A stretch of 64,000 nt of DNA, taken from assembly GCF_027622875.1 (NCBI RefSeq), contig NZ_JAPZVP010000007.1:62001-126000 (forward strand), in the 5' to 3' direction. Each line of letters begins with the position of its first letter. The first letter of the stretch is position 1. The translations under genes and the position numbers were made by a program. Shown piece by piece: positions 7,153 through 31,344 of this stretch. Under the pieces are notes generated by a model that was not told the DNA's origin, did no database searches, and saw nothing but the letters and a program-made list of their open reading frames with translations. This stretch comes from Glycomyces luteolus. GTDB lineage: Bacteria > Actinomycetota > Actinomycetes > Mycobacteriales > Micromonosporaceae.

Positions 7153-7180
7153 ATGGCACATGACATGTGACATGCCGCTG
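7153..7180 (+). repeat. Dispersed palindromic element, copy 1
   Basis: Contains TGTGACATGCCGCTG, 13 of 15 matches to the shared half-site TGTGAYATGSCACTG, preceded by ATGGCACATGAC which completes an imperfect palindrome. It lies between convergent genes. Two further copies follow within 120 bp. Confidence 0.7.
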
Positions 7181-7213
7181 AGGAGCGGCGGGGACGACAC
7201 CGAGATCGGCGAT

Positions 7214-7238
7214 GGTGCATGGCATGTGCCATATCATC
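7214..7238 (-). repeat. Dispersed palindromic element, copy 2
   Basis: Read on the minus strand it gives TGATATGGCACAT, the core of the shared half-site. Internally ATGGCA-TG-TGCCAT (7219-7232) is a perfect inverted repeat. One of the more diverged copies. Confidence 0.5.
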
Positions 7239-7269
7239 GCGGCCCCGCTGAGGCCGCCTCACCGACCGC

Positions 7270-7295
7270 GTGCCATGGCATATGACATGCCACTG
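7270..7295 (+). repeat. Dispersed palindromic element, copy 3
   Basis: GTGCCATG at the left and GACATGCCACTG at the right reproduce both arms of the palindrome, with a shortened centre. It lies 17 bp from the response-regulator stop codon. Confidence 0.65.
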
Positions 7296-7311
7296 ACTGG
7301 CCACCCGGGCC

Positions 7312-7986
7312 TCAGTTGCCGTCCGGGGCGACGAGACCGGTGTTGTAGGCGAAGATGACCGCCTGCACTCGGTCCCGGGCGCCGATCTTGGCGAGGATGC
7401 GGCCCACATGGGTCTTCACCGTCGACTCGGCGAGATGGAACCGCTCCGCGATCTCGGTGTTGTTCCAGCCCCGTCCGATCGCCGTCAGCACCTCCTTCTC
7501 CCGCTCGGTCAGGACCCCGAGCCGCTCGGCCGCCGCCGAGGTGTCGCCCTCGCCCTCGACCGGGAACTGGTCGGCGAAGCGGTCGAGCAGCCGCCGCGTC
7601 AGCTTCGGCGCGACCACCGCGTCACCTGCGGCCACTACACGGATCCCCGCCAGCAGCTCCTCCGGCTGGGCGTCCTTGACCAGGAACCCGCTCGCGCCGG
7701 CCCGCAGCGCCGCGTACGCGTACTCGTCGAGGTCGAACGTGGTCAGCACCAGCACCCGGCTGCGGCCGCCCGCGGCGATGATCCGGCGCGTCGCCTCGAT
7801 CCCGTCCACGCCAGGCATGCGCACGTCCATGAGCACCACGTCAGGGCCCAGCTCAGTCGCGCGCCGCACCGCGTCCGCCCCGTTGCCGGCCTCCCCGAGC
7901 ACCACGAGATCCGGCTGGCTCTCCACCAGCATCCGGAATCCCATGCGCTGCAAGGGATGGTCGTCCACGATCAGCAACGTGGTCAC
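7312..7986 (-). CDS. NarL/FixJ-type response regulator
   Basis: 224 residues from GTG 7986, which overlaps the sensor kinase stop by 4 nt. Receiver domain: acidic pocket D8/D9, phosphoacceptor D54 in VVLMDVRMPG, conserved T in VLTTFD and K104 in FLVKDA. C-terminal LuxR-type helix-turn-helix: LTEREKEVLTAIGRGWNNTEIAERFHLAESTVKTHVGRILAKI. Phosphorylated by the adjacent kinase, it likely controls the ABC exporter genes just upstream in the same minus-strand cluster, as in many Gram-positive kinase-regulator-ABC modules; the target is inferred from context. Confidence 0.93.
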   Translation of the reverse strand: MTTLLIVDDHPLQRMGFRMLVESQPDLVVLGEAGNGADAVRRATELGPDVVLMDVRMPGVDGIEATRRIIAAGGRSRVLVLTTFDLDEYAYAALRAGASGFLVKDAQPEELLAGIRVVAAGDAVVAPKLTRRLLDRFADQFPVEGEGDTSAAAERLGVLTEREKEVLTAIGRGWNNTEIAERFHLAESTVKTHVGRILAKIGARDRVQAVIFAYNTGLVAPDGN

Positions 7987-9194
7987 CGGTGCTCCTCTCC
8001 GTCCCCGGGCAGCCACAAGGCGACCCGCCAGCCCCCGAGCGCCTCCGGCCCGGCGACCATCGTGCCGCCGAACGCCGCCGCCCGCTCCGACAAGCCTGCC
8101 AGACCACGGGCGGTACCGGCCTCGTCCACCCGGTTCCCGCTGTTGCGCACCGTGACGGAAAGACCCGAGCCCCGGTACTCGATCGTCACCTCGGCCCGCT
8201 TCACGCCCTTCGCGTGCTTCAACACGTTCGTCAGCGACTCCTGCACCGTCCGGTACACCGCCAGCTGCTGGTTCTCCGACAGCGCCAGCGGCTCGCCCGT
8301 CACAGTCACCGTCACCGGCAGCCCCGCCTCCCGGACCCGCTCGATCAACGCATCCAGATCGGACAGTCCCGGCTGCGGCGCCAGCTCCAGCTCCCCGTTC
8401 TCCTCCGCCTTGAGCACCGACAGGACCCGGCGCAGCTCGCCCAGCGCCTCCCGGCTCGTGCGCCCGATCGCCTCGAGCGCCTCCTTCGCCTTCTCCGGCG
8501 AAGCGGTCGCGGCGTACGCGCCGCCGTCCGCGAGCGCGTTGATCACCGCCAGGTTGTGCCCGATGATGTCGTGCATCTCCCGCGCGATCCGGTTGCGCTC
8601 CGCCGTGACCGCCTGATGCGCGGCCTGGTCGCGCTCCGCGTGCTGGAACTCCCGGCGGGTGCGCATCAGCATCCCGATCGTCACGACGAACCCGAAGTAG
8701 ATCGCCCCAGGCGCGAAGTACCCCAGGAAACCGAGCACCGAATGACCCTCATTGACCAGCCAGTCGATCAACGAGGGCACCAGCGAGACCAGGCCCGCCC
8801 ACCACAGCAGCTTGAGCGGGCGCCGCACCACCAGGTTGTAGAGCACGAACGTGAACGCCACCGCCCCCGCCGCGTTCACGAACCCCGCGTTCTCATCGCT
8901 CGTGTACCCGAGCGGGATCGTGATCGCCAGCGGCGCGCACTGGCTCAGCAGCACCGTGAACGGGTACCGCCGCCGCCAGATCGTCGGCACCAGGAACATC
9001 GCCACCAGCACGAGCTGCAGCAGCGGACGCTCCGGCTCGAGCTCTTCAGCCGCGGCGAACACCATCGCCATGGCGGCGGGGAACGAGTACAGGAAGATCG
9101 GGAACAGATTCCAAAGCAGCGGATGCCGGGAGTCGAACTCCAGCATCCGCTGCCACATCCCGCGCTTGCGGGTAACGGTCACGGCCTCGGCCAC
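7983..9194 (-). CDS. HisKA_3-type sensor histidine kinase
   Basis: About 403 residues. GTG 9194 is taken as start, since an upstream start would extend into the permease gene; GTG 9182 is also possible. Five to six transmembrane helices occupy the N-terminal half (FPIFLYSFPAAMAMVF, LLQLVLVAMFLVPTIW, and others). The phosphoacceptor His is in AREMHDIIGHNLAVI, and the HATPase_c region has the N-box QESLTNVLKHAKG and G-box ARGLAGLSERAAAFGG. It senses a membrane or envelope signal and phosphorylates the co-transcribed regulator. It starts about 10 nt after the permease stop codon. Confidence 0.9.
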   Translation of the reverse strand: MAEAVTVTRKRGMWQRMLEFDSRHPLLWNLFPIFLYSFPAAMAMVFAAAEELEPERPLLQLVLVAMFLVPTIWRRRYPFTVLLSQCAPLAITIPLGYTSDENAGFVNAAGAVAFTFVLYNLVVRRPLKLLWWAGLVSLVPSLIDWLVNEGHSVLGFLGYFAPGAIYFGFVVTIGMLMRTRREFQHAERDQAAHQAVTAERNRIAREMHDIIGHNLAVINALADGGAYAATASPEKAKEALEAIGRTSREALGELRRVLSVLKAEENGELELAPQPGLSDLDALIERVREAGLPVTVTVTGEPLALSENQQLAVYRTVQESLTNVLKHAKGVKRAEVTIEYRGSGLSVTVRNSGNRVDEAGTARGLAGLSERAAAFGGTMVAGPEALGGWRVALWLPGDGEEHR

Positions 9195-9204
9195 GAGTAC
9201 ATGC

Positions 9205-10026
9205 TCACACGTCGCGACGCTTGAGCAGCACGCCCGCCAGGCCATACGTGACGACCAGCCAGATGCCCATCCACAACCACGACTCGCCCACCGACAGGTT
9301 CGCCCCGCCCGGGTCGACCATCAACAGCGTGTTGGACACGTTGCCCGGCGCGTACGGCGTCACATCGGCGACCCAGTTCCACGGCAGCAGCGTCGCCAAC
9401 TGCGGCAGGATCATGATCACGCCGATGTAGAACCCGATCGAACCGGCCGAGTTGCGCAGGATCGAACCGATCCCGAGCGCCAGCAGCGCCAGGTACACGA
9501 TCATCGCCGTGTACCCCAGCAGCGCCCGGAGCACCCCGTCGCCGGCCAGCGACACGCCGCCCAGATCCGTGCCCGAGAAGATCGCCTGCGTCATGAAGAA
9601 CGTCAGGAACACCATGACGCCGAACAGGACCGCGACCACGGCCCCGTACACGGCGGCCTTCGCCCACAGCACCGAGACGCGCCTCGGCGCGGCCGACATG
9701 GTCGAGCGGATCGACCCGGTCGTGTACTCACCCGTGACCGTGAGGATGCCCAGCACCGCCACGAACACCGAAGCGAGTGAAATCCCCGCCATCGAGAAAT
9801 CGAGCGCCGCACCCGCGCCGCCCGACGCCTGGTCGCTCGGCACACTGGACGCGATGAGCGCACCCAGGCCGGCGCTGAACACGACCGCGCACAGCAGCAC
9901 GATCCAGGTCGAACGCAGCGACCACAGCTTCGTCCACTCCGAACGCAGCAATCCCGCCGCGCTGAGCTTGTAGTTCGCCGGCGGCGTGTAGGCCGCGGGA
10001 CGGTCGGTCATCACGGCGGCGGTCAT
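9205..10026 (-). CDS. ABC-2 family transporter permease
   Basis: 273 residues from ATG 10026, overlapping the ATPase stop by 4 nt. About six transmembrane helices are visible. The N-terminal LLRSEWTKLWSLRSTWIVLL is the hallmark of actinobacterial ABC-2 exporter subunits, as is GEYTTGSIRSTMSAAPRR after the second helix. It forms the membrane channel for the ATPase at 10023-10943, exporting a drug, lipid or peptide. The neighbouring two-component system suggests induction by an envelope-active compound. Confidence 0.9.
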   Translation of the reverse strand: MTAAVMTDRPAAYTPPANYKLSAAGLLRSEWTKLWSLRSTWIVLLCAVVFSAGLGALIASSVPSDQASGGAGAALDFSMAGISLASVFVAVLGILTVTGEYTTGSIRSTMSAAPRRVSVLWAKAAVYGAVVAVLFGVMVFLTFFMTQAIFSGTDLGGVSLAGDGVLRALLGYTAMIVYLALLALGIGSILRNSAGSIGFYIGVIMILPQLATLLPWNWVADVTPYAPGNVSNTLLMVDPGGANLSVGESWLWMGIWLVVTYGLAGVLLKRRDV

Positions 10027-10943
10027 CGGTTCGCCCCTTCACTGGTCTGGCGGTACTCGACCGCGTCGGCGGTCAACTGCATGAACGCGTCCTCAAGGGA
10101 CCCGCGGTCGGTGCGCAGCTCGTGCAGCACGAGGCTGTGCGCGGCCGCGGCCTGGCCGACGACGGCGGCCTCGGTCCCCGTCACCTCCAGGACCCCGCGC
10201 TCCGGACTCGCGACGGAGATCCCGGGCCCGGCCAGATGCTCGGCCAGGCGCGCCGCGTCGGGCGAGACCACCCGCACGCGCGACCGCCCGTTGCCGGACA
10301 CGAAATCGTCCACCGTGGTATCGGCCAGGAGCCGGCCCTGCCCGATCACGACCAGGTGCTCGGCCGTCTGCGCCAGCTCGCTCATGAGGTGCGAGGACAG
10401 GAACACCGTCCGGCCCTCGGCTGCAAGGCCCTTGAGCAGCAGGCGGATCCACTTCACACCGTCCGGGTCGAGACCGTTCACCGGCTCGTCCAGGATCAGC
10501 ACTGCCGGGTCGCCGAGGAGCGCCACGGCGATGCCCAGGCGCTGGCCCATGCCGAGGCTGAAGCCGCCGACGCGCTTGCCGGCGACCTCGTGCAGGCCGA
10601 CGAGGTCGATGACCTCGGTGACGCGGCGTTTCGGGATGCCGTGGGTGCGGGCGAGGGCCAGGAGGTGCTTGTAGGCGCTGCGCCCGGCGTGAACGGACTT
10701 GGCCTCGAGCAGCGCGCCGACCTCGGTGAGGGGCGAGCGGAATTCGGAGTAGTGCTTCCCGTTGACCCGGGCGAGGCCGCTGGTGGGAGCGTCGAGGCCC
10801 ACGATGGCGCGCATCGTGGTGGACTTCCCGGCGCCGTTGGGGCCGAGGAAGCCGGTGACGACGCCGGGTTTGACGGCGAACGACAGATCATCCACGGCGG
10901 TCTTCTTGCCGTAGCGCTTCGTCAAGTGCTCGATCTCGATCAT
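10023..10943 (-). CDS. ABC transporter ATP-binding protein
   Basis: 306 residues from ATG 10943; the minus-strand TAGCGT (10951-10956) sits exactly 7 nt upstream, suggesting a leaderless mRNA. Walker A GPNGAGKST (34-42), signature FSLGMGQRLGIA (LSGGQ variant), Walker B VLILDEPVNGLD and the switch His in FLSSHLMSE. The C-terminal extension of about 80 residues is typical of drug-export ATPases. First gene of the minus-strand exporter-kinase-regulator operon. Confidence 0.92.
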   Translation of the reverse strand: MIEIEHLTKRYGKKTAVDDLSFAVKPGVVTGFLGPNGAGKSTTMRAIVGLDAPTSGLARVNGKHYSEFRSPLTEVGALLEAKSVHAGRSAYKHLLALARTHGIPKRRVTEVIDLVGLHEVAGKRVGGFSLGMGQRLGIAVALLGDPAVLILDEPVNGLDPDGVKWIRLLLKGLAAEGRTVFLSSHLMSELAQTAEHLVVIGQGRLLADTTVDDFVSGNGRSRVRVVSPDAARLAEHLAGPGISVASPERGVLEVTGTEAAVVGQAAAAHSLVLHELRTDRGSLEDAFMQLTADAVEYRQTSEGANR

Positions 10944-11074
10944 GCACCGAACGCTACGGCGCGCCGAAGGGCGCTTCATCGGTTCGAGGAGCGAACTTCA
11001 GGGACACGAGTGGTACCCGAGTACTACGACTTCAGGTCAGGGCGGGGCGGGCGCGCCATCACCGGGAATCCGAC

Positions 11075-11103
11075 AAGTGCCGCGTGACATGTCATATATC
11101 ACC
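11075..11103 (-). repeat. Dispersed palindromic element, copy 4
   Basis: Begins AAGTGCC and ends TATCACC around the perfect 10-bp palindrome TGACATGTCA (11085-11094). Arms match the family consensus, while the centre is inverted relative to most copies. It lies between the polymerase stop codon and the ABC operon promoter. Confidence 0.55.
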
Positions 11104-11191
11104 CGTATGGCGAACCCCCGGAAATACCCTGACACAGGGGTACGACAGTGATGGGGGAAGGACATCGGTTCCGGCCGTTCGGGCCGGTCCG

Positions 11192-12946: not shown

Positions 12947-13127
12947 GGCTCAAGTGCACCATGTGCCACCGACATCCCGACCCATCCGGCGCCGCAAGGC
13001 GCATTCCGGGGCAGGCGAACCGCCTCCCGGTGAGGCGAGCCATGAATGCGCCTCGCTTCCCTGCGCCTCCGGTCCGTGTCGTGCCCGCATGTCAGGGTCG
13101 TACCGGGCCCGCAGATCGCGTAGTACG

Positions 13128-13151
13128 TAATATGTCACATGGCATTGCAGG
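13128..13151 (+). repeat. Dispersed palindromic element, copy 5
   Basis: Contains TGTCACATGGCATTG, 13 of 15 matches to the half-site, preceded by TAATA. It lies in the divergent intergenic region between the polymerase gene and the GPGG small-protein gene, about 70 bp from the latter. Confidence 0.65.
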
Positions 13152-13222
13152 TCAGGGCCGGAACTGGCGGCCGTGAGACGACTGTAGACATACTTTCGCG
13201 TCTTCCCGGGTAACCAGGCGCC

Positions 13223-13366: not shown

Positions 13367-13496
13367 CCGGGCTGCGGGCGGCGGTGGCACCCGGCATGCG
13401 GCCGCCGCTGCGCAGCGCGCCCGGATGCCGCTGGGCGGCGTGCGACCGGCCGGGGAAGCTCGCGGTCGCCGCCCAGCGGCGCCACTGCGCTCGCCG

Positions 13497-14540: not shown

Positions 14541-14560
14541 GCCTTCCGCCTCCGTACCTC

Positions 14561-15505: not shown

Positions 15506-16494
15506 GAATCGCTCCTGATGCGGCGGATGAAGAGGTAGTTGAGGAGGGCGACGATGACGATGACGAGGAACATCGTCCATGCGACCGCGGAGGCGTAGCC
15601 GAATGCGAAACCGCGGTTGAAGCCGTGCTCGTACAGGTAGAGCGTGAGCGTCTGGAACTGCCTCGAGGCGCCGCCGGTGACGCCGTTCGGTCCTCCGCCG
15701 CCGAAGAGCTGCGGTTCGGCGAAGATCTGCAGCCCGTAGATGGTCGAGACGATCACGGTGAACACGATGGTGGGCCGGATCATCGGGACCGTGACGTGGA
15801 ACAGCTGCTGCATCCGCGAAGCGCCGTCGAGATGGGCGGCCTCGTAGACCTCGCGCGGGACGGCCTGCATCGCGGCGAGGAAGATCAGGGCGTTGTAGCC
15901 GGTCCACTTCCACGCCACCATCACCGCGATGGCGATATGTGACGTGGCACTGCCGGACTGCCAGTCGACGCGCCCGGCTCCGAGCGATTCGAGCACCCAG
16001 TTGACGAGCCCGAAGTCGCGGCCGAACAGCTGGCTGAAGATGACGGCGACGGCCACCACGGAGGCGACGTTCGGCAGCAGCATCCCCATGCGCCAGAACG
16101 TCTGCCCGCGCAGGCGCAGCGTCAGCAGGTGCGCCAGGAGCAGGGCGGCCAGCAGCTGCGGCACCGTGGCGAGCAGCAGGATGGAAAGCGTGTTGCCCAG
16201 GGCGTTCCAGAAGTACGGGTCGCTCAGGAGCGTCTGGTAGTTGCCGAGCCCGAGGAACGCGTGCTCGTCGGAGAGCAGGCTCCACTCGTGTGTGGACACC
16301 CAGGCCGTGTAGGCGAGCGGGAAGAGCCCGAACGCGGCGAAGAGCGCGAAGAACGGGGCGATGTACAGGTACGGCGAGGCTTTGAGGTCCAAGCGGTACC
16401 GCAGGTGCTGGAAGCGCCCTGCGGGGCGCTCGGGTCCTGCGGTGGGGGAGGACCGTCCAGTGGGGTCGGCGGTGCTCTTGGCGGCGATGGTCAT
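15502..16494 (-). CDS. Sugar ABC transporter permease, MalF type
   Basis: 330 residues from ATG 16494. Six transmembrane helices, starting SPYLYIAPFFALFAAFGLFPLAYTAWVS, and the EAA loop EAAHLDGASRMQQLFHVTVP. It forms the membrane channel with the MalG-type subunit. The coding sequence contains palindromic element copy 6 at 15935-15953, encoding GSATSHIA with atypical TCA and CAT codons; alignment by eye to related permeases suggests no length change there. It is separated from the binding-protein gene by a hexanucleotide repeat and a large hairpin. Confidence 0.92.
   Translation of the reverse strand: MTIAAKSTADPTGRSSPTAGPERPAGRFQHLRYRLDLKASPYLYIAPFFALFAAFGLFPLAYTAWVSTHEWSLLSDEHAFLGLGNYQTLLSDPYFWNALGNTLSILLLATVPQLLAALLLAHLLTLRLRGQTFWRMGMLLPNVASVVAVAVIFSQLFGRDFGLVNWVLESLGAGRVDWQSGSATSHIAIAVMVAWKWTGYNALIFLAAMQAVPREVYEAAHLDGASRMQQLFHVTVPMIRPTIVFTVIVSTIYGLQIFAEPQLFGGGGPNGVTGGASRQFQTLTLYLYEHGFNRGFAFGYASAVAWTMFLVIVIVALLNYLFIRRIRSDS
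15935..15953 (+). repeat. Dispersed palindromic element, copy 6, inside permease gene
   Basis: ATATGTGACGTGGCACTGCC matches the half-site TGTGAYATGSCACTG at 13-14 of 15 positions. It lies antisense within the MalF-type permease reading frame, in frame and without a stop. Confidence 0.65.
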
Positions 16495-16514
16495 CGGGTC
16501 GCTTTCAGGATCGT

Positions 16515-16562
16515 CGGAAGCGGAAGCGGAAGCGGAAGCGGAAGCGGAAGCGGAAGCGGAAG
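16515..16562 (-). repeat. Hexanucleotide tandem repeat, eight copies
   Basis: Eight perfect tandem copies of CGGAAG on the plus strand (CTTCCG on the transcribed strand). It occupies the leader between the binding-protein hairpin and the MalF-type permease start (about 20 nt upstream of ATG 16494). Copy-number change by slippage would alter spacing but not any protein. Confidence 0.9.
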
Positions 16563-16604
16563 CGGGACCGGCCGGGCGCGGGCGGTGCGCCCGGCCGGTC
16601 CCGC
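16562..16604 (-). terminator. 18-bp perfect stem-loop after binding-protein gene
   Basis: GCGGGACCGGCCGGGCGC (16562-16579) pairs perfectly with 16587-16604 across a 7-nt loop. It starts 14 nt beyond the binding-protein stop codon and before the permease genes. Such hairpins usually make the binding protein more abundant than the permeases by partial termination or mRNA protection. Confidence 0.75.
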
Positions 16605-16617
16605 CTCCTTTGGGGGG

Positions 16618-18087: not shown

Positions 18088-18118
18088 ACGTCACGCGTGA
18101 CATGTGATGTGCCACCGC
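18088..18118 (+). repeat. Dispersed palindromic element, copy 7
   Basis: GTCACGCGTGAC (18090-18101) is a perfect 12-bp palindrome. TGTGATGTGCCACCG follows, matching the shared half-site at 13 of 15. It lies between the glucanase stop and the sugar-uptake promoter region. Confidence 0.6.
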
Positions 18119-19824: not shown

Positions 19825-20280
19825 TCAGCGTGCGCCTTCGTCGCCCTCGGTCTGCGGCGGCTGCCGCGCCTCCCGCGACCGCCGCTGCAGATCGTCGAGC
19901 CGCGCCTGCCGCTCGTGCCGCAGCCGCTCCAGGCGCCGCTGCCGCTCGCGCCGCTCCTCGGGCGACTCCGTGCCGCCGAGCATCCGCTTCTCGAGCCACT
20001 CCACGTGCTCGGCGTGCGCCGCGGCGTTGATCGCCCGGACGTCCTGGTAGGTGCCCCGCAGCGACTCCATCCGCTTGAGCGCGTCGTGGCACTGCGCCAG
20101 CAGGATCTCGATGTCGGCGTTCTCGGCCGGGTCGGCGTCCTCGCGACGCGCCTCGAGCCACGCGATGCCCTCCCGCAGCTTCTCGCGGGCCTTGAGGTTG
20201 TGCATCGCCAGGTCCTCGACGAGTCGGTCGGTCGTCTCGAGGAAGCTCAGGTGAGGATCGGGGCGGTCGTCGGTGCCCAT
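19825..20280 (-). CDS. Charged helical protein of unknown function
   Basis: 151 residues from ATG 20280, with GGAAGGA 8-9 nt upstream. Almost entirely helical and highly charged; the C-terminal part EERRERQRRLERLRHERQARLDDLQRRSREARQ is very likely a coiled coil. The middle (REGIAWLEARREDADPAENADIEILLAQCHDALKRMESLRGTYQDV) suggests a helical bundle. No transmembrane segment or catalytic motif is seen, and I recognise no family. It is divergent from the M50-like protease gene. Confidence 0.65.
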   Translation of the reverse strand: MGTDDRPDPHLSFLETTDRLVEDLAMHNLKAREKLREGIAWLEARREDADPAENADIEILLAQCHDALKRMESLRGTYQDVRAINAAAHAEHVEWLEKRMLGGTESPEERRERQRRLERLRHERQARLDDLQRRSREARQPPQTEGDEGAR

Positions 20281-21118: not shown

Positions 21119-21143
21119 CGTCCGCTTCGGGAACGGCGCCGAT

Positions 21144-23840
21144 TCAGCGCAGATGCCGCTTGGTCTTCGCGGTCGGCGCCACCGAGTACGGGTCCTCCGG
21201 CCACGGGTGCTTGGGGTATCGGCCGCGCATCTCCTTGCGCACCTCCCGGTAGGGCCCTTCCCAGAACGACCTGAGGTCGGCGGTCACCGCGAGCGGCCGC
21301 CCGGCGGGGCTGAGGAGGTGCAGGACCACCGGCACGCCCGCGACGCGCGGGGTGTCGACGGCGCCGAACATCTCCTGGAGCTTGACGGCGAGCACCGGCG
21401 TCTCACCGGAATAGTCGACGCGGGCCTCGCGTCCTGAGGGGACCGCGAGCGCCTCCGGAGCGGTCTCGTCGATGCCGGCCTGCCACGGCAGCAGGTTCCG
21501 CAGCGCCTGGCCGACCGGGATGCGCTCCACATCGGATCGGCGCCTCGCCCGGGGCCACCACGGCTCCAGCCAGTCGGTGCCCGCCGTGAGCGCCGCGTCC
21601 GAGACGTCGGCCCACGGTTCGCCGAGCGCTCGGTGGCAGAACGCCATGCGCTCGCGCAGCCGCTTCGACTCCTCCGACCAGCGCAGCAGGCCGAGGCCTT
21701 CGCGGCGCAGCCCTTCGGCGAGCGCCGCCGCCACGAGCGCCGGATCGGGCTGGCGCAGCGGCTCCGAGGAGATCTCGATCGCCCCGAGCGACCGCACGCG
21801 GCGCGCGGCCACGTCCCGGCGCTCGCCGTCCCACTCGACGCGCTCGCCCGCGCTGTCGCCAACCAGCTCGCAGGCGAGCTCGCCGTCGATCGGGACGGCG
21901 GCCCGGATGAGGGCGGCGGCGCGGCCGGGGGAGCGGTCGGCGTCGGCGATGGCGAGCCACGGGCTTCCGGCGAGCGAGGAGCCCTCGGCGGCGACCGCGC
22001 CCGTGCCGGCGACGGTCCGCCACTGCCCGGCGCTCAGCGCCGCGCCCATCCGGTTCGGGTCGGCCCCTCGGCCCCGGATCGGCGTGAACGCCGCTCCCCC
22101 TTGGCTTTTGGCGACGCGCTCGGGAAAGGCCAGGGCGATGACGGTGGCGGCGGCCTCGTCGTCGGCGACCGCGAATCGGCGCGCACCACCGGATCGCGAC
22201 GCGGCCGCACCGGCTGGCGGGCTTCCGTTCGCCGCAACGGTGTCCGGGCTCCGCTCGGTGCCTGCGTCGCGCGCGCTCGACAGCGCTCGCTTCAGGCGTT
22301 TGACCTCGGACTCCCACTGCCGGTCCCTGCTGGTGCGCAGCTGGCGCCACTGCGCGAGGAGGTCGTCGCCTCTGGCGCGGCGGTCGAGGTTCAGGAGCGC
22401 GGCGACCTCCGCGGCCTTCTCCGCGCCGACGCGTTCCGCGCCGTCGACCAGCGCGCGGGCCAGTCGCGGCGGGACGCCCATCCGGGCGAGGGCACGGCCC
22501 CGCGCGGTCGCCATGCCGTCGGTGTCGATGGCGCCCAAGGCGCGGAGGGTCGTCTCGGCGGCCTCGAGCGCGCCCGCGGGCGGTGGGCCCGGCAACGCCA
22601 GGTCCTCGACGGGGGTGCCCCAGCAGGCGGCCTGGAGGCGGAACGCGGTGAGGTCGGAGCAGGCGATGTCCGGGGCGGGCTGGGCGGCGCGGCGGGCGTG
22701 CTCGGCTTCGCTCCAGCACCGCCAGACCGCGCCGGGGCCTTCGCGTCCGGCGCGGCCCGCGCGCTGGTCGGCGGAGGCGCGTGAGGCGTAGGCCGTGGTC
22801 AGGCCCGGCAGGCCGCGCGCGTGGTCGATGAGGGGCCTGCGGGCGAGTCCGGCGTCGACCACGATCCGCACCCCGGGCACGGTGAGGCTGGATTCGGCGA
22901 TGTCGGTGGCGAGGACGACCCGGCGGCGATCCCCTGCGCGCATGGCACGGTCCTGTTCGGACGACGAGACCGAGCCGTGCAATTGATATATATCGACTCC
23001 GAGGTTTTCGGAAGTCAAGTGGGACAGCCGCTCGGCGACGCGACGGATCTCGGCGGCGCCGGGGAGGAAGACCAGGAGGTCGCCGTCTCCCGCGTCGAGG
23101 GCCCGTTCGGCGGTGTGGGCGACGTGCGCGAGGAATCGGGGGTCGACGCGCATTCCGTCGGGTGCGTTGACACGCTCCCTCGTTGGGGCCCAGTGCATCT
23201 CGACGGGGTGGCGCATCGGTTCGGAGCTCACGGCGGGCGCGGGGGCGTGCTCGGTGCCGAGGAGGGCGGTCCAGAGGGTGACGTCGGCGGTGGCGGAGGC
23301 GGCCACGAGGCCGAGGTCGGGGCGCAGGATCTGGCGGGTCTCGGCGAGGAACGCGCAGGCGGTGTCCGTCTCGAGGTGGCGTTCGTGGCATTCGTCGAGC
23401 ATGACGAGGTCGACGCCGGGGAGTTCGGGGTCGGCGATGAGCCGGTTGAGAAGGACCCCGGTCGTCACGACCTCGACGCGGGTGGCGGCGGACCGGCGGG
23501 CTTCGCCCCGGATCTGGTAGCCGACCCGACCGCCGACCTGCTCGCCGAGGATCGCGGCCATGCGCGTGGCGGCGGCCCAGGTGGCGAGGCGCCGCGGCTC
23601 GGCCACCAGGACGCGCCGCTGTGGCATATCACGTGTCACACGTGACGCGGCATCGCCGGCGGGAACGTCCTCTCCGGGTATGAGCCCGGCGAGGGCGAGC
23701 GGAGCGAGCGTGGTCTTGCCGGTGCCGGGCGGCGCGGCGAGCACCGCGGTCCCGGTGCGCGCCACGGCTTCCAGGAGCGCGGGCAGGGCTTCGCGGATCG
23801 GCAGCTCGGGCAGCGCGGGCGGTTGCGGCATGACGACCAT
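21144..23840 (-). CDS. hrpB: ATP-dependent RNA helicase HrpB-like
   Basis: 898 residues; ATG 23840 or 23831 could be the start. DEAH/RHA architecture: Walker A APPGTGKTT (36-44), motif Ia VAEPRRLA, motif II DECH (149-152), motif III SAT (182-184), then VLATDIAESSLTVPGVRIVVDAGLARR and QRAGRAGREGPGAVWRCW. The helicase-associated region and the HrpB C-terminal domain end LPWQAGIDETAPEALAVPSGREARVDYSGETPVLAVKLQEMFG, which is diagnostic. HrpB is a presumed RNA helicase; its cellular role is poorly defined. Palindromic element copy 8 (23621-23650) encodes residues near 63-73, between Walker A and motif Ia, where related proteins seem shorter. Confidence 0.9.
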   Translation of the reverse strand: MVVMPQPPALPELPIREALPALLEAVARTGTAVLAAPPGTGKTTLAPLALAGLIPGEDVPAGDAASRVTRDMPQRRVLVAEPRRLATWAAATRMAAILGEQVGGRVGYQIRGEARRSAATRVEVVTTGVLLNRLIADPELPGVDLVMLDECHERHLETDTACAFLAETRQILRPDLGLVAASATADVTLWTALLGTEHAPAPAVSSEPMRHPVEMHWAPTRERVNAPDGMRVDPRFLAHVAHTAERALDAGDGDLLVFLPGAAEIRRVAERLSHLTSENLGVDIYQLHGSVSSSEQDRAMRAGDRRRVVLATDIAESSLTVPGVRIVVDAGLARRPLIDHARGLPGLTTAYASRASADQRAGRAGREGPGAVWRCWSEAEHARRAAQPAPDIACSDLTAFRLQAACWGTPVEDLALPGPPPAGALEAAETTLRALGAIDTDGMATARGRALARMGVPPRLARALVDGAERVGAEKAAEVAALLNLDRRARGDDLLAQWRQLRTSRDRQWESEVKRLKRALSSARDAGTERSPDTVAANGSPPAGAAASRSGGARRFAVADDEAAATVIALAFPERVAKSQGGAAFTPIRGRGADPNRMGAALSAGQWRTVAGTGAVAAEGSSLAGSPWLAIADADRSPGRAAALIRAAVPIDGELACELVGDSAGERVEWDGERRDVAARRVRSLGAIEISSEPLRQPDPALVAAALAEGLRREGLGLLRWSEESKRLRERMAFCHRALGEPWADVSDAALTAGTDWLEPWWPRARRRSDVERIPVGQALRNLLPWQAGIDETAPEALAVPSGREARVDYSGETPVLAVKLQEMFGAVDTPRVAGVPVVLHLLSPAGRPLAVTADLRSFWEGPYREVRKEMRGRYPKHPWPEDPYSVAPTAKTKRHLR
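23621..23650 (-). repeat. Dispersed palindromic element, copy 8, inside hrpB
   Basis: TCACGTG-TCA-CACGTGA is a perfect inverted repeat, and GTGGCATATCACG at the left matches the shared half-site read on the minus strand. It is in frame and encodes AASRVTRDMPQR with atypical TCA, ACA, CGT and CCA codons. Confidence 0.55.
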
Positions 23841-23961
23841 TCTCGCCGAGGCCCTGCGGGTGCGGCGACCGGACGAGGTGAGGGCGCGCAGGCCGGGTCG
23901 GCTCGGGGCCGAATACGGCGAGGGCGGCGACCGCGATGCGGTCGCCGCCCTCGCTCACGGC

Positions 23962-25557: not shown

Positions 25558-25669
25558 CCTCGGCCTCGCTTCTGATTCAGGGAGCAGGGGACGTGGGAGA
25601 GCTTAGTCGGCAGGCCCCGGACCGCCCGAGGGCGCCCGGGAGCTGCCGGGTTCGATCGGCACAGCCCGA

Positions 25670-25694
25670 ATGTGTGACATGTGATATGGCACTG
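25670..25694 (+). repeat. Dispersed palindromic element, copy 9
   Basis: TGTGATATGGCACTG is an exact match to the half-site TGTGAYATGSCACTG, preceded by TGTGTGACA. It lies between msrB and the kinase gene, next to the msrB terminator. Confidence 0.7.
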
Positions 25695-25703
25695 CTCGGT
25701 CGG

Positions 25704-25729
25704 TTCGGGCCGATCGCGATCGGCCCGAA
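25704..25729. terminator. Perfect 26-bp palindrome after msrB
   Basis: TTCGGGCCGATCG and its exact complement form a 13-bp stem ending 5 nt from the msrB stop codon; terminator for msrB. Confidence 0.7.
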
Positions 25730-25733
25730 GCAC

Positions 25734-26144: not shown

Positions 26145-26381
26145 GCTCCAAGTGTAGGAGCAGCGCGCGCCGTCTCGTCTCGCCCGGGCGGGGCGCACCC
26201 CGATCGGGGAGCGGGCCCAGGACCGCGCGCCACCTCCCGGCAGCGGGCATGTGTTGGATCGACGGGCCGACAGCGCAGCGAGCGGGCGGTCCGATCCGCG
26301 GGACCTGCTTACCACTGCCGTTGCGGCACGGAGGCGCCCGAGCCCGCGTCGCCCTCCCGGCGGGCCGCTAGGATCGTGCCC

Positions 26382-27407
26382 ATGCGGTACCTCCTTGGCG
26401 ACTACACCACTGAAGGCGGCCCGGGCCTCGTCGTGGCCGGCCCCGACGGACTCGGCGCGGCGGCGGCGGTGGTCAACCCGACGTGGGTCCACGTCGGCCC
26501 CGAAGCGGTCTACACCCTCACCCACACCGAGCCCGGCTTCGCCGCGGCCTGGCGCCTCGGAGAGGACTTCACCCTCGACCGGGCCGGCCAGGGACAGTCC
26601 ACCGGCGGCGACAACCCCTGCCACGGCACCGTCGACCCGAGCGGGCGCTGGCTGCTGGTCGCCAACTACGGCGACGGCGACGGGGGCGGCTCCGTCGCGG
26701 TCCTGCCGATCGGCGAGGACGGCACGCTGGGCGAGGCGACCGACGTCTTCAAGTTCTCGGGCTCGGGCCCCGACGCGGATCGCCAGACCGGGCCGCACGC
26801 GCACCAAGTGGTATGTCACATGGGACGCGTCCTGGCCGTCGATCTGGGCACGGACCGTATCCACGCGTTCGACCTCGGCGAGGACGGCAAGCTCGTCCCG
26901 GCGGCGACCACCGTGCTCGAGCCGGGCTTCGGGCCGCGGCACCTGGCCTTCCTCGGCGACCGCGCGATCGTGGTGGGGGAGTTGGCGAACGCCGTGGCCG
27001 TCGGGACCTTCGACGAGCGCGCGGCCACGTTCGCCTTCCGGGCCCCGGTCGCCCTGCCGGGCGGCGAGGTCGCGGACTTCGCGGCCCTGCCGGACATCGG
27101 CCTTGACGAGGAGACGCCCCGCCCGCTTCCGGCGGCCGTGGTCCCCGACCCCGAACGAGGCCTGGTGTACGTCACGGTGCGCGGCCCCGACCAGGTCGCC
27201 ACCGTCGATCCCGCCGACGGCTCGCTCGTGCGCTCGGTCCCGGTAGGCGGCGCCTGGCCCCGCGATGCCGTGCTCACCGCCGACGGCACGCTGCTGGTGG
27301 CCTGCCAGCACTCCGGCGCCGTCACCCGGGTCGACCCGACCGGTGCGGCCGAGCCCGTCACCGAGTGGTCCGTCCCCGGCGCCACCTGCGTGGCCCCGCT
27401 CACATAA
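26382..27407 (+). CDS. Lactonase-family beta-propeller (6-phosphogluconolactonase-like)
   Basis: 341 residues from ATG 26382. TAGGAT (26369-26374) lies exactly 7 nt upstream and no Shine-Dalgarno is present, so the mRNA is probably leaderless. Seven-bladed propeller landmarks: NPCHGTVDPSGRWLLVANYG, TGPHAHQVV, RVLAVDLGTDRIHAFDL, GFGPRHLAF and GAWPRDAVLTADGTLLVACQHSG. Members hydrolyse 6-phosphogluconolactone or bind other ligands. Palindromic element copy 10 lies at 26806-26827, encoding VVCHMG in the loop after the conserved PHAH. Confidence 0.88.
   Translation: MRYLLGDYTTEGGPGLVVAGPDGLGAAAAVVNPTWVHVGPEAVYTLTHTEPGFAAAWRLGEDFTLDRAGQGQSTGGDNPCHGTVDPSGRWLLVANYGDGDGGGSVAVLPIGEDGTLGEATDVFKFSGSGPDADRQTGPHAHQVVCHMGRVLAVDLGTDRIHAFDLGEDGKLVPAATTVLEPGFGPRHLAFLGDRAIVVGELANAVAVGTFDERAATFAFRAPVALPGGEVADFAALPDIGLDEETPRPLPAAVVPDPERGLVYVTVRGPDQVATVDPADGSLVRSVPVGGAWPRDAVLTADGTLLVACQHSGAVTRVDPTGAAEPVTEWSVPGATCVAPLT
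26806..26827 (-). repeat. Dispersed palindromic element, copy 10, inside lactonase gene
   Basis: Contains TGTCACATG; read on the minus strand TGTGACATACCACTT matches the half-site at 13 of 15. It encodes QVVCHMG using atypical GTA, TGT and GGA codons, in frame. Confidence 0.6.
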
Positions 27408-27421
27408 ATCGTTCCGACCAG

Positions 27422-27458
27422 GCAAATTTGCGCCGCCTGCAAAATTTCTTCATTTGCA
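27422..27458. promoter_or_regulatory. Candidate TetR operators, AT-rich inverted repeats
   Basis: GCAAATTTGC (27422-27431) is a perfect palindrome. TGCAAA and TTTGCA (27438-27458) form a second inverted repeat with a 9-nt gap. Both sit directly upstream of the TetR gene promoter in an AT-rich island, as expected for an autoregulated repressor. Confidence 0.5.
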
Positions 27459-27460
27459 TC

Positions 27461-27489
27461 TTGTGAACATGAGTAACCTCCACTAGGGT
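27461..27489 (+). promoter_or_regulatory. Leaderless promoter of tetR-mmpL
   Basis: TTGTGA (27461-27466), 17-nt spacer, TAGGGT (27484-27489), then 7 nt to ATG 27497. Confidence 0.65.
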
Positions 27490-27496
27490 TGCTCTC

Positions 27497-28114
27497 ATGG
27501 CCGACCAGACCGGACTCCGCGAACGCAAGAAGGCCGCCACCAAGGCGGCCCTCTCCGCAGCGACCTTCCGTCTCGCGGTCACCAAGAAGGGCCTCGGGAG
27601 CGTCACGGCCGACGAGATCGCCGCCGAGGCCGGCGTCTCGACCCGCACCTTCCACAACTACTTCCCCTCGAAGGAAGCCGCGCTCCTGCACGACTTCAAC
27701 GAGACCACGAACGCACTGCTCGCCGACCTGCGCGAACGGGCCAAGACCCAGCCGATCTGGGACGCGATCCGCGACGCCGGCATCGCCATGCACCTCGACG
27801 AGAAGTTCGACCTCGAGATGATGCGCTGCCGCGAGCAGCTCATCCACGACTCTCCCTCGCTCATCAAAGAGCAGTCGGGCCAGTTCATGGCCCTGTTCAC
27901 CGAAGCGATCGGGATCGTCGCAGAAGCCACCGGCACCGCCGTCACCGACCTCTACCCGCGTCTCGTGCTCGGCAGCGCCCTGGTCTGCATCAAGACCACC
28001 ACCGAGCACTGGCTCTCCGAGCCCGGCGAACGCACCCTCGCCGAGGCGATCACCGAGGGCTTCGCCGTCCTCGAACACGGCATCACCAAGCCGCCCTCCG
28101 CACCCGGGAACTGA
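27497..28114 (+). CDS. TetR-family regulator of the MMPL exporter
   Basis: 205 residues from ATG 27497, leaderless. The N-terminal helix-turn-helix reads LRERKKAATKAALSAATFRLAV ... VTADEIAAEAGVSTRTFHNYFPSKEAALL, standard TetR. The C-terminal helical domain is ligand-binding. It is followed 181 bp later by the MMPL exporter on the same strand, so it most likely represses itself and the exporter, releasing on binding a transported compound. Confidence 0.9.
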   Translation: MADQTGLRERKKAATKAALSAATFRLAVTKKGLGSVTADEIAAEAGVSTRTFHNYFPSKEAALLHDFNETTNALLADLRERAKTQPIWDAIRDAGIAMHLDEKFDLEMMRCREQLIHDSPSLIKEQSGQFMALFTEAIGIVAEATGTAVTDLYPRLVLGSALVCIKTTTEHWLSEPGERTLAEAITEGFAVLEHGITKPPSAPGN

Positions 28115-28206
28115 AACCGCCCGGGTCAGAGACGACAACTGAAGAGAAGGCACTACCAGGAAACCCCACCGCCGACGACCTCGTCGGCGAACACCACCCG
28201 AGCCGA

Positions 28207-28267
28207 CCGGCTCCGCCGCCGCACACCCACTGCCGTCCTTGCGACGCAGCGCGGACGGCGGAGCCGG
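28207..28267 (+). other. Long-loop stem upstream of mmpL
   Basis: CCGGCTCCGCCG (28207-28218) pairs perfectly with 28256-28267 across 37 nt. It ends 14 nt before the AAGGAG of the exporter gene, so it may influence translation or readthrough from tetR. The rest of 28115-28295 shows nothing clear. Confidence 0.45.
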
Positions 28268-28295
28268 AAGGCGAACCCTGTAAGGAGCACCCAGC

Positions 28296-30539
28296 GTGGC
28301 CACCTTCCTCTACCGTCTCGGCAGAGGGTCCTTCAGACTGCGATGGCTCGTCCTCGTCGTCTGGGTCCTCATCGTCGGCGGCGTCGGCGCCGCGGCGGCG
28401 ACCATGCAGCAGGAGACGAACCCCGAGTTCGTCCTCCCCGGCACCGAATCCCAGGAGGCCTTCGACCTCCTCGAAGAACGCTTCCCCGAGGCGAGCGCGG
28501 ACGGCGGCAGCGCCCAGATCGTGTTCGAATCCGAGACCGGCGAACCGCTCACCTCCGAGGCCAACAAGGCCGCCATCGAGGACCTCGCGGCCGTCATGCA
28601 GGACTCGCCGCAGATCGCCGCGGTCACCAGCCCGTTCGCGACCGACGAAGCCGGCAACCCGATCGGCATGATCTCCGCCGACGGCCAGAACATCGCCGTC
28701 ATGCAGGTCACCTACGCCGAACCCTCCATGGAGCTCGACGAGGCCACCGTGGACTACCTCCAAGAGGCCGTAGCCGACACTGAAGACGCCGGCGTGCGCG
28801 TCGAGGTCGGCGGCGACGTCCTCCAGGCGATGCCCGAGACCGGCGCCACCGAGCTCATCGGCATCGGCGTCGCCCTGGTCGTCCTCGTCATCACCTTCGG
28901 CGCCCTCCTCGCGGCGGGCCTGCCGATCATCACCGCCGTCCTCGGCGTCATGCTCACCACCGCCGGCATCCTCGCCGCGACCTCCTTCATGAACGTCAGC
29001 GAATCCACCGGCACGCTGGCCTCCATGATCGGCCTCGCCGTCGGCATCGACTACGCGCTGTTCATCCTCTCGCGCTACCGCGGCGAACTCGCCAAGGACG
29101 GCCGCGTCGAAGACAAGCGCGCCCGCGCCGAGGCCATGGGCCGCGCCGTCGGCACCGCCGGCTCCGCCGTGTTCTTCGCCGGCCTCACCGTCGTGATCGC
29201 GCTCCTGGGCCTGTCGGTCGTGAACATCCCGTTCCTGACCGAGATGGCCGTGGCCGCCGCCGTCACCGTCGTCATCGCCGTGCTCATCGCCGTCACCCTG
29301 CTCCCGGCCTTCGCCGGATTCGCCGGGAAGCGGATCTTCACCAGGCGGCAGCGCCGCCGCATCGCCGAGGGCCTCCACGACTCCAAGCCCAACGGCGGCA
29401 AGCGCTGGGCCGGGTTCGTCACCCGACACCCGATCCTGGTCGCCCTGGTCGGCATCGTCGGCCTCGGCACGCTCGCCTACCCGGCGCTCGACCTCGAACT
29501 GGGCCTGCCCGACGCCGGCTCGTCCAGCGAGGACACCACCCAGCGCCAGGCGTACGACCTCATCAGCGAGGGCTTCGGCGAAGGCTTCAACGGCCAGCTC
29601 CTCATCGTGGGCGACCTCGAAGACGGCGTCGACGCCATGACGGCCGCGCAGAGCATCACGGACGAGCTGAACGGCATCGACGGCATCGCCGTCGTCGGCC
29701 AGGCGATGCCGAACGCCGACATGGACACCGTCATGGTCTCCCTCATCCCGGAGACCGGCCCGTCCGACCACGCCACCAACGAGCTCGTGCACGAGATCCG
29801 CGGCGTCCTCGCCGACGACGCCGACGCCGACTGGTCCGTCACCGGCGCCACCGCGCTGAACATCGACATCTCGGACAACCTCAACGACGCGCTGCTGCCG
29901 TACATGCTCATCGTCGTCAGCCTCGCCGCGCTCATCCTGCTGCTGGTCTTCCGCTCGCTCCTCGTGCCGATCATGGCCACGCTCGGCTTCATGCTCAGCG
30001 TGTTCGCCGCACTCGGCGCGCTCGTCGCGGTCTTCCAGTGGGGCTGGATGTCGGAGCTGTTCAACGTCGACCAGCCCGGCCCGATCATGTCGATGATGCC
30101 GATCCTCATGATCGGCCTCGTCTTCGGCCTCGCCATGGACTACCAGATCTTCCTGGTCACCCGTGTCCGCGAAGCCTACGTGCACGGCGCGAATCCGAAG
30201 CAGGCCATCGTGGAGGGCTACGGCCACTCCTCGCGGGTCGTGGTCGCCGCCGCGCTCATCATGATCAGCGTCTTCGCGGCGTTCATCTTCAGCGGCGAAG
30301 CGCTCATCGCCTCGATGGGCTTCGCCCTCGCGGCCGCGGTCATCTTCGACGCCTTCGTGGTCCGCATGGCGATCATCCCCGCGATCATGGCCCTCATCGG
30401 CCGCGGCTCGTGGTGGATCCCCAAGTGGCTCAACCGGATCCTGCCGAACGTGGACGTCGAAGGCGAAAAGCTCCAAGAGCACCTCGCCAAGGACGCCCCG
30501 CACGAAGCCGAGCGCGAGCTCGTCGGAGCGTCCAAGTAG
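28296..30539 (+). CDS. MMPL-family RND transporter
   Basis: 747 residues from GTG 28296; AAGGAG about 8 nt upstream. Two repeats of one transmembrane helix, a large extracytoplasmic domain and a five-helix bundle. First half: YRLGRGSFRLRWLVLVVWVL and GLAVGIDYALFILSRYRGEL; second half: MIGLVFGLAMDYQIFLVTRVREAY, each with the Asp-Tyr pair for proton coupling. Actinobacterial MMPL proteins export lipids, siderophores or drugs by proton motive force. Control by the upstream TetR suggests an efflux role. Confidence 0.93.
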   Translation: MATFLYRLGRGSFRLRWLVLVVWVLIVGGVGAAAATMQQETNPEFVLPGTESQEAFDLLEERFPEASADGGSAQIVFESETGEPLTSEANKAAIEDLAAVMQDSPQIAAVTSPFATDEAGNPIGMISADGQNIAVMQVTYAEPSMELDEATVDYLQEAVADTEDAGVRVEVGGDVLQAMPETGATELIGIGVALVVLVITFGALLAAGLPIITAVLGVMLTTAGILAATSFMNVSESTGTLASMIGLAVGIDYALFILSRYRGELAKDGRVEDKRARAEAMGRAVGTAGSAVFFAGLTVVIALLGLSVVNIPFLTEMAVAAAVTVVIAVLIAVTLLPAFAGFAGKRIFTRRQRRRIAEGLHDSKPNGGKRWAGFVTRHPILVALVGIVGLGTLAYPALDLELGLPDAGSSSEDTTQRQAYDLISEGFGEGFNGQLLIVGDLEDGVDAMTAAQSITDELNGIDGIAVVGQAMPNADMDTVMVSLIPETGPSDHATNELVHEIRGVLADDADADWSVTGATALNIDISDNLNDALLPYMLIVVSLAALILLLVFRSLLVPIMATLGFMLSVFAALGALVAVFQWGWMSELFNVDQPGPIMSMMPILMIGLVFGLAMDYQIFLVTRVREAYVHGANPKQAIVEGYGHSSRVVVAAALIMISVFAAFIFSGEALIASMGFALAAAVIFDAFVVRMAIIPAIMALIGRGSWWIPKWLNRILPNVDVEGEKLQEHLAKDAPHEAERELVGASK

Positions 30540-30550
30540 CCGATGCCTGA

Positions 30551-30582
30551 AGGGGACCGGGCCCGCCCCGGCCCGGTCCCCT
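30551..30582 (+). terminator. Stem-loop after mmpL
   Basis: AGGGGACCGGGCC and its perfect complement form a 13-bp stem with a CGCCCC loop, 12 nt after the exporter stop codon. Confidence 0.75.
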
Positions 30583-30610
30583 CCGGCAATCGGCGAACGG
30601 GGGACCCTTC

Positions 30611-31306
30611 ATGGTCTTCTTCTGGGCGATGCTCATCCTCATCGGCATGGTGGTCGCGGACTTCTTCGTCCCGATGCTTCCGAGCGCGACGCTCGTGACC
30701 GCCGCCGCCGGACTCGTCTTCGGCAACCCGATCCTCATCGGAGTGCTGCTCGTCGGCGCCGCCGTCGCCTCCTGGCTCGGCGAATTCCTCGGCTACCGGC
30801 TCTTCCGATCGCTGCGAACGGGACTCGCCCGCCGCAGCCCGCGCGCGGTGCGCGGCCTCGTGACCGGCACCGTCGCCAAACTCGAAACCCTCCTGCAGCG
30901 CACCATCAGCGACCACCCGTACCGGACGACGATGGTCGCCCGGTTCCTGCCCGCCGGACGCACCGCGCTGGCGTGGGCGGCGGCCGGCACCGCCAAGCCC
31001 CCGTACGCGCGCATGGCCGCCCTCGGCGGGGCCCTGTGGGCGGTGTACTCGGTGAGCCTCGGCCTCACGATCGCGTGGATCGCCGGGCCAGGACTGCAGT
31101 CCCTCATCGGATCCGTCGTCACCATGGCGGCCGTAGGCCTGTTCCTCGGCTGGCTGGCCCGCCGCTGGCAGCGGACCCACCCCGACCTGCCCGGCAGCGT
31201 CCCCGACGCCGCAGTCCTCCCGATCGCGGCCGCACCCGACACCGCGCTCCCCGTACCCCGCGACACTCCGGACGACGCGAGCGGCACGACCGCCCGCGCT
31301 GCCTGA
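30611..31306 (+). CDS. DedA/VTT-domain membrane protein
   Basis: 231 residues from ATG 30611 with GGGGGA about 7 nt upstream. The DedA/SNARE-associated pattern is visible: FFVPMLPSATLVTAAAGLVFGNP, a re-entrant GEFLGYRLFRSL, then TTMVARFLPAGRTALAWAAG with the conserved R-F-x-P-x-x-R and a C-terminal helix pair. DedA proteins flip undecaprenyl phosphate or phospholipids. The last 40 residues (DAAVLPIAAAPDTALP) are a disordered tail. A palindromic element begins 5 nt after the stop. Confidence 0.85.
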   Translation: MVFFWAMLILIGMVVADFFVPMLPSATLVTAAAGLVFGNPILIGVLLVGAAVASWLGEFLGYRLFRSLRTGLARRSPRAVRGLVTGTVAKLETLLQRTISDHPYRTTMVARFLPAGRTALAWAAAGTAKPPYARMAALGGALWAVYSVSLGLTIAWIAGPGLQSLIGSVVTMAAVGLFLGWLARRWQRTHPDLPGSVPDAAVLPIAAAPDTALPVPRDTPDDASGTTARAA

Positions 31307-31310
31307 ACCG

Positions 31311-31344
31311 CCCAGTGCCATGCCACATGTGACATGGCACTGGG
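31311..31344. repeat. Dispersed palindromic element, copy 11, near-perfect 34-bp palindrome
   Basis: The best copy. Both 17-nt arms read CCCAGTGCCATG(C/T)CACA and pair at 16 of 17 positions; each arm contains the half-site. It starts 5 nt after the DedA stop codon, so it could also act as its terminator. Confidence 0.8.

Follow-up and report, generated by a model that had tools for sequence, protein, structure and literature searches.

Predicted HypR-type operators scattered around a hypR-like gene in part of the genus Glycomyces

A dispersed element in a Glycomyces contig

The window analysed here, a stretch of 64,000 nucleotides from Glycomyces luteolus (G000:C47:62001-126000, in a genome of 5.74 Mb in 49 contigs), contains eleven copies of a short palindromic element dispersed within and between genes. 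A first-pass annotation had described these copies, present in either orientation, and we located all eleven, each within 12 bp of where it had been placed. Our analyses suggest that the element is an operator of a HypR-like regulator, whose gene (g28, referred to below as hypR) lies left of the window inside the same domain of sites. Two profiles were used, one grown from half-site matches on contig C47, which converges at 23 sites between C47:1116 and C47:93342 (11 of them within the window), and an independent one built from 12 C47 training sites that all lie outside the window. The window sites are as follows, with genome counts referring to eight site-rich Glycomyces genomes and genes called by a home-made, uncurated codon-usage finder:

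7151..7180 (+): first of three sites in the convergent gap between methyltransferase-like and response-regulator genes; 35.7 bits, 30.4 bits with the independent profile; this gap has a site in 7/8 genomes
7210..7239 (+): second site of that gap, weaker; 25.1 bits, 19.4 bits with the independent profile, which calls the opposite strand
7266..7295 (+): third site of that gap, weaker; 24.0 bits, 13.4 bits with the independent profile
11075..11104 (-): between tandem minus-strand genes, close to the 3' end of a DNA polymerase/exonuclease-like gene and adjoining a TGTCGTACCC module; both profiles; 7/8 genomes
13118..13147 (+): divergent gap; both profiles; 4/8 genomes, with a 26-bit site still present in genome G018
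15923..15952 (+): weak (21.2 bits), within a sugar-ABC permease gene; 8/8 genomes; codons altered in G018 and G017
18088..18117 (+): tandem gap, close to the 3' end of a glycoside-hydrolase-like gene; both profiles; 8/8 genomes
23619..23648 (-): within an HrpB-like helicase gene, towards its predicted 5' end (start codon uncertain); both profiles; 8/8 genomes; replaced in G018 and G017
25665..25694 (+): tandem gap, close to the 3' end of an msrB-like gene; both profiles; 5/8 genomes
26806..26835 (-): within a lactonase-like gene, on A- or T-ending codons; both profiles; 8/8 genomes
31313..31342 (+): 7 bp past a gene 3' end, with two near-perfect half-sites; both profiles; 5/8 genomes; the final domain site on C47

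The half-site, allowing up to 3 mismatches, matches the window 12 times, against a mean of 2.25 and a maximum of 7 in 100 shuffles. At a cut-off of 12 bits the independent profile picks out 10 window sites, and at 8 bits it picks out 11, all of them at window positions 1-32000. The corresponding means in 40 third-order shuffles are 0.175 and 1.125, and 40 column-shuffled profiles yield 0.3 matches above 12 bits on average and never more than 3; the permease-gene site at 15923 is the sole listed copy that scores below 12 bits with this profile. We therefore rejected a chance origin on the basis of the shuffle counts and the independent profile. A half-site match near 20085 that had been set aside as chance is absent from the profile list. 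The reported spacing of about 2.2 kb holds as an average but not as a regular period, since three copies fall within 145 bp and the other gaps range from about 1 to 5.5 kb. Nor does the set begin at 7153, for it continues left past the window edge to C47:1116. On the other side, a profile scan found no site in the rest of the 259,573-base contig, from about 93.4 kb to the contig end at 259.6 kb.

Anatomy of the site

Across the 175 distinct sites in the fetched DNA, information spans 28 bp only and the flanks are at background. The consensus, GTGMYRY-GTGACAT-GTSAYAT-GCCACTG, consists of four GTSAC-like pentamers at a 7-bp pitch and can also be read as two facing 14-bp HypR-like half-motifs. 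The layout is palindromic, as the first-pass annotation had it, but imperfectly so, with G-G the commonest combination at one inner pair (113/175 sites). The two halves pair no more often than the multiplied column frequencies predict, with the central pair (0.85 vs 0.74) as the one exception, so that 14 of the 15 symmetric pairs have no excess, and Rfam gave no match in the window at the gathering threshold. The lack of a pairing excess and the frequent G-G inner pair argue for a protein site rather than an RNA stem, and we rejected an RNA hairpin on the near-independence of column pairing together with the blank Rfam search. In some genomes certain copies do share 20-50 bp of flank, and part of the set may have arisen by local duplication.

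Restriction to part of the genus

A genome scan for exact matches returned 11 stretches, of which six belong to Glycomyces algeriensis, G. lechevalierae and G. salinus. We then scored 22 Glycomyces genomes with a model, R1, that like the profile was trained on sites of the window's own genome (G000), so that finding the G000 sites again is by construction. At E<=0.02, nine genomes have at least 11-32 matches (site-rich), six have at least 1-2 and seven have none among the candidates scored; in 19 relatives outside Glycomyces there is none at E<=0.1 among the candidates scored. In a scan of 348 genomes of the order, limited to 21 candidates per genome, at least 7 Glycomyces have matches, and a single match falls in a genome of another kind. 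The R1 counts and absences are lower bounds, as 150 of about 170-350 candidates were scored. The genomes with few matches keep one or two sites, located upstream of a peptide-ABC operon. In a tree of four neighbouring proteins the site-rich genomes form two groups, with G018 nested in one of them (supports 0.996 and 0.998) and G011 joining the other (0.998); the weak spots of this tree are clade C (0.338) and the exact place of G011 against the remaining clade B (0.533).

The sites lie around the gene for a HypR-like protein

The sites are concentrated in one part of the chromosome. Of the 29 distinct matches in the own genome (E<=0.1, 150 candidates scored), 20 fall on 1.7% of its length, and in the six site-rich genomes with at least 100 kb around hypR covered there are 16-28 sites within 70 kb of this gene. 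The outermost sites lie at -64/+62 kb from hypR in G002, -56/+65 in G007, -86/+61 in G014, -49/+69 in G008 and -33/+56 in G005, and extend from the contig end to +62 in G000. Of all sites in the fetched DNA of the six hypR contigs, 135/137 are within 70 kb of hypR, a figure to be read with the fact that only G000, G014 and G008 were covered more than 5 kb beyond that limit. The fetched domain is incomplete for G006, G016 and G019.

The hypR gene occupies G000:C47:31162-31818 (-), 30.2-30.8 kb left of window base 1, and its product has GntR (1.3e-14) and FCD (1.3e-21) Pfam domains. Its neighbours in G000 are proline-racemase-family, DHDPS-family and aldehyde dehydrogenase genes, a hydroxyproline-catabolism setting. 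The HypR of Streptomyces is a zinc binder. HypR (SCO6294) of Streptomyces coelicolor is a GntR/FCD repressor of hydroxyproline-catabolism genes that binds CTNTGC(A/C)ATGTCAC and has the metal-site residues E96, D138, H142, E185, H186 and H208 (PMC6608401). All six residues are present in g28 at a constant offset of 2 (E94, D136, H140, E183, H184 and H206). The element had been said to fit nothing known, a view that its resemblance to this motif overturns: every one of the 175 sites fits the HypR consensus at 8-12 of 13 scored positions, whereas 292 of 350 equal-length flank windows have 5-8 matches (for the most part 6-8), with a tail up to 12 that is probably due to neighbouring site copies included in these windows. 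In addition, site 31313 holds the exact 11-mer TGCCATGTCAC, which recurs in three fragments to which HypR binding was seen by gel shift (PMC6608401). We call g28 HypR-like because of its gene setting, the motif match and the metal-site residues, and the binder of the sites is very probably the HypR-type protein encoded at C47:31162-31818.

A site lies 48 bp upstream of the predicted hypR start in the own genome and 0.4 kb from hypR in G002, G007 and G005; upstream of hypR in G014, G006 and G019 there are only 15-16-bit matches. Hydroxyproline genes adjoin hypR in G000 and G017, and two of the three do so in G005. In G014, G008, G006 and G019, by contrast, hypR has none of this trio next to it, and these four genomes are still site-rich.

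A HypR paralogue (46-53% identity), to which g28 is the closest relative, has the motifs VSATPVREA and NKGFRV in common with HypR in 24 aligned sequences; these were chosen by a TPVREA-like motif, so the TPVREA stretch is partly common by construction, and one of 25 (the G002 paralogue) was lost. The paralogue gene lies about 11 kb from the like site upstream of the peptide-ABC operon in 7/7 fetched site-poor genomes and in the own genome. It is absent from two site-rich genomes, G005 and G006, and thus is not needed for site richness. In G000 the site in question is C9:16796, and the last genes of the operon downstream are proline-iminopeptidase-like and aminopeptidase-P-like.

Sites and hypR occur together, and sites are decayed in a genome that lost hypR

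Orthologues of hypR with 79-100% identity are present in 10/22 Glycomyces genomes, comprising 9/9 site-rich and 1/13 site-poor genomes (G017). The Fisher p-value of 2e-5 for this co-occurrence is not corrected for kinship and, like those for the pooled tandem-gap sites described below, is too small because the genomes share ancestry. For comparison, gene g27, which adjoins hypR, is found in 12/22 genomes, nine site-rich and three site-poor, with its frame broken by an internal stop in G007, G014 and G019. In G000, g27 lies at C47:30802-31095 (+), left of the window, and encodes a histidine-rich protein of 97 aa.

In G018 the hypR-containing stretch between g25 and g33 has been swapped for unrelated genes and no hypR is left, although the neighbouring gene order is intact. 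The seven G018 gaps orthologous to site-bearing gaps score a mean z of 3.04 against shuffles, compared with -0.41 in 19 other gaps (p 1.4e-4); z exceeds 3 in four of the seven, and one remnant still scores 25.6 bits. As read from sequence, G018 is a natural hypR knock-out in which sites persist mainly as decayed remnants.

Most sites are outside promoters, and many positions are conserved

Tandem gaps hold 81 of the 210 sites placed in the eight site-rich genomes and convergent gaps 57, while genes and divergent gaps have 36 each. In the domain of G000, G002, G007 and G014, convergent gaps have 3.2-4.6 sites per kb, tandem gaps 1.1-1.4, divergent gaps 0-1.3 and coding sequence 0.03-0.06, and among gaps of at least 30 bp within 70 kb of hypR in the six genomes a site is found in 22/98 convergent, 45/325 tandem and 14/125 divergent gaps. 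For the 53 tandem-gap sites, pooled over related genomes, the median distance is 73 bp to the upstream 3' end and 145 bp to the start of the following gene. With this convergent enrichment and 3'-end bias, most sites are not in promoters, the location of the sites in the HypR system. We note that one convergent gap, at G007:C22:7773-8163, has six site copies, some of which belong to a direct repeat of 116 bp with two copies.

Six positions are filled in 8/8 genomes, namely the gaps g57/g58, g58/g59 (convergent) and g77/g78 and sites inside g76, g81 and g84. At the coding sites in g84, g76, g81 and g9, four-fold identity among the site-rich genomes is 0.911-0.958 inside the site and 0.792-0.87 outside, a comparison that rests on 3-7 codons per site. 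Many A- or T-ending codons at coding sites are kept in the site-rich genomes and swapped in G018 and G017, and the stretch of the g81 coding site is unrelated in both of these. Profile, genome and relative scans, shuffles and positional conservation thus favour a real, selected element, and of the possibilities listed by the first-pass annotation a protein-binding site is the one that holds, given counts beyond chance and the likeness to the HypR motif.

A possible array of operators around the repressor gene

On balance we think it likely that the scattered copies are predicted HypR-type operators, multiplied around the repressor's own gene and used as a reservoir or architectural array. In such a scheme, the single operator of the hydroxyproline-catabolism genes would have multiplied within part of Glycomyces to give the sites within 70 kb of hypR and about ten elsewhere, and HypR, probably as pairs of dimers on the four pentamers, would be made locally and fill the array around its own gene. 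Rather than serving as a set of promoters, the filled array would then be a local reservoir and/or a bridging array, marking or compacting about 130 kb of chromosome. Our preference for a local reservoir or bridging array comes from the retention of sites of which most are unable to act on a promoter; granted a HypR binder, the chance that the role is one of reservoir or architecture, rather than roadblock or regulon, seems to us about even. Somewhat more tentative is the suggestion that a one-operator metabolic repressor has turned local chromosome organiser, its operator having spread over about 130 kb, mostly off promoters and partly kept in codons, remaining in several species after the neighbouring catabolic operon is gone and decaying with hypR loss. 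If true, the regulator gene would sit inside the territory marked by its own product, making this a self-centred binding domain.

The likeness to S. coelicolor HypR comprises the GntR/FCD architecture, the same metal-site residues, a motif-like half-site, adjoining hydroxyproline genes in clade A and G017 and, in clade A, a site just upstream of hypR. The Streptomyces protein, in contrast, has seven bound fragments in promoter regions chromosome-wide (PMC6608401), where Glycomyces has tens of paired 28-bp predicted sites around the gene, mostly off promoters, and in clade B and G006 of Glycomyces the catabolic genes are not beside hypR. Transcriptionally inert sites outside promoters are described for the transcription factor PhoB (PMC10294691); unlike those, the Glycomyces sites are in one domain around the regulator gene, position-conserved and mostly intergenic. 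The protein family and the motif are already known; in the open-licence literature searched we found no report of an operator multiplied into a gene-centred, mostly non-promoter domain or of the Glycomyces element itself. That the distribution of a bacterial regulator depends on the location of its own gene has already been discussed. Glycomyces offers a natural case, in which the sites of one regulator crowd around its gene in six genomes and G018 (gene lost) and G017 (gene and single operator) provide ready comparisons, so that non-promoter binding sites and gene-centred binding domains become directly testable questions in soil bacteria that are culturable and non-pathogenic.

Several observations weigh against this interpretation. 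Site density is lopsided, as hypR has 38/137 sites to one side and the remaining 99 to the other, at unequal coverage. Site score is flat with distance from hypR (rho -0.02, n=137) and averages 31.6 in the domain (n=158) and 31.8 elsewhere (n=52), so a simple gradient of local concentration is unsupported. The placements in divergent (36/210) and tandem (81) gaps suggest that some sites may be regulatory, and the site 48 bp upstream of hypR itself in clade A is a placement of the regulatory type. The codon comparison is small, and a fifth coding site, in g23, has no rise in four-fold identity (0.812 inside vs 0.831 outside). The co-occurrence is drawn from one genus, in which other genes of the same distribution may exist. 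Finally, G017 has a 79% identical hypR, the hydroxyproline genes and a syntenic region but one site, at those genes, so that hypR alone does not imply an array; comparison of scores with shuffles found no clear site remnants in the other gaps of G017, which represents either an ordinary ancestral state or an old loss.

Alternative explanations

The main rival to a reservoir or bridging array is that bound HypR acts as a transcription roadblock or insulator at gene ends, halting read-through into a convergent or following gene. The convergent-gap enrichment and the closeness to upstream 3' ends agree with such a role, as does the g57/g58 site, which directly follows a terminator-like hairpin in several genomes. 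A roadblock nevertheless leaves unexplained the confinement near hypR and the divergent-gap and in-gene sites, and some site gaps already contain a terminator-like hairpin; we regard it as unlikely.

Less likely still is an ordinary regulon, in which HypR or a relative would repress or activate many neighbours, often genes that serve the use of sugars or amino acids. In Streptomyces HypR acts as a repressor (PMC6608401), and there are promoter-like sites at the hydroxyproline genes, at hypR and at the peptide-ABC operon, as well as some divergent-gap sites. Against this stand the 57 sites in convergent gaps and 36 in genes, the position of tandem-gap sites away from the next start and the retention of sites in clade B and G006, where the hydroxyproline genes are no longer beside hypR. 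Gap classes, densities and 3'-end bias led us to reject a coherent promoter regulon.

The GTGAC half-sites are like those of matS and of omega heptads. Enterobacterial matS sites, bound by MatP, are dispersed GTGAC-containing palindromes of 13 bp with a 3-bp centre that mark a chromosomal domain and have no promoter action. The Glycomyces sites likewise are dispersed GTGAC-containing palindromes over one chromosomal domain and mostly off promoters, which would suit a macrodomain, MatP/matS-like or other, with a binder that is not HypR, such as a ribbon-helix-helix (RHH) protein. The Glycomyces sites, however, are far denser than matS, are found in part of one genus only and have a core spacing of 2 bp and not 3, a different protein family is expected to bind them, and the HypR-motif likeness and hypR co-occurrence speak for HypR. 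By eye we noticed no RHH protein among the translated domain genes, in which RHH families were not searched. In G014, moreover, the domain (46-193 kb) lies to one side only of the GC-skew switch taken as the terminus (about 420-450 kb, from 20 kb sampled per 50 kb) and 240-385 kb from it, and a terminus macrodomain was rejected on these grounds. All in all, we consider a macrodomain with another binder improbable.

Related systems were also compared. Canonical parS was rejected, as it exists separately, by dnaA on other contigs, and differs in sequence from the element. The omega heptads of plasmid pSM19035 are GTGAT/GTGAC units at a 7-bp pitch; the Glycomyces site, by contrast, is fixed at four units and does not extend past 28 bp, and a polymerising omega-type array was rejected. 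With a dif consensus, six Glycomyces genomes gave no convincing match, only a poor 3-mismatch one in G002, while dif-like matches were found in two other genera of the family. GC skew in G014 is negative right of oriC, so the leading strand seems to be C-rich in Glycomyces. Besides dnaA on C5, G000 has a second, weaker DnaA-domain match (45.9 bits) at C17:32026-32334.

A small mobile or duplicating palindrome without function (REP/MITE-like), as the first-pass annotation had suggested, is very improbable. Flank similarity of about 20-55 bp among some copies (clearest in G014, G008, G002 and G007), tandem copies about 50-80 bp apart and the 116-bp two-copy repeat in G007 would fit it. Conservation nonetheless stops at 28 bp, only two pairs in G000 share flanks, six positions are common to 8/8 genomes, and G018 has remnants rather than clean empty sites, so that apart from some local flank sharing the element lacks the REP/MITE trait of sequence beyond the palindrome at mobile positions. 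To the structured RNA end or terminator hairpin that had also been proposed we give next to no weight: the element is palindromic and often close to gene ends, but Watson-Crick excess is confined to the central pair, G-G is the usual state of one inner pair, divergent gaps contain sites and Rfam gave no match.

Other features near the sites

A short run of GGAAGC hexamers lies between two ABC-transporter genes at window 16495-16617; the same gap in G018 is without the run. The module TGTCGTACCC...CAGGGT occurs at window 11138 (-) and 13077 (+) and at C47:60682 (+), about 40-60 bp from three of the sites and with some flank shared, and is loosely like a DNA-damage promoter. A comparable 45-bp stretch adjoins several sites in G014, G008, G006 and G019.

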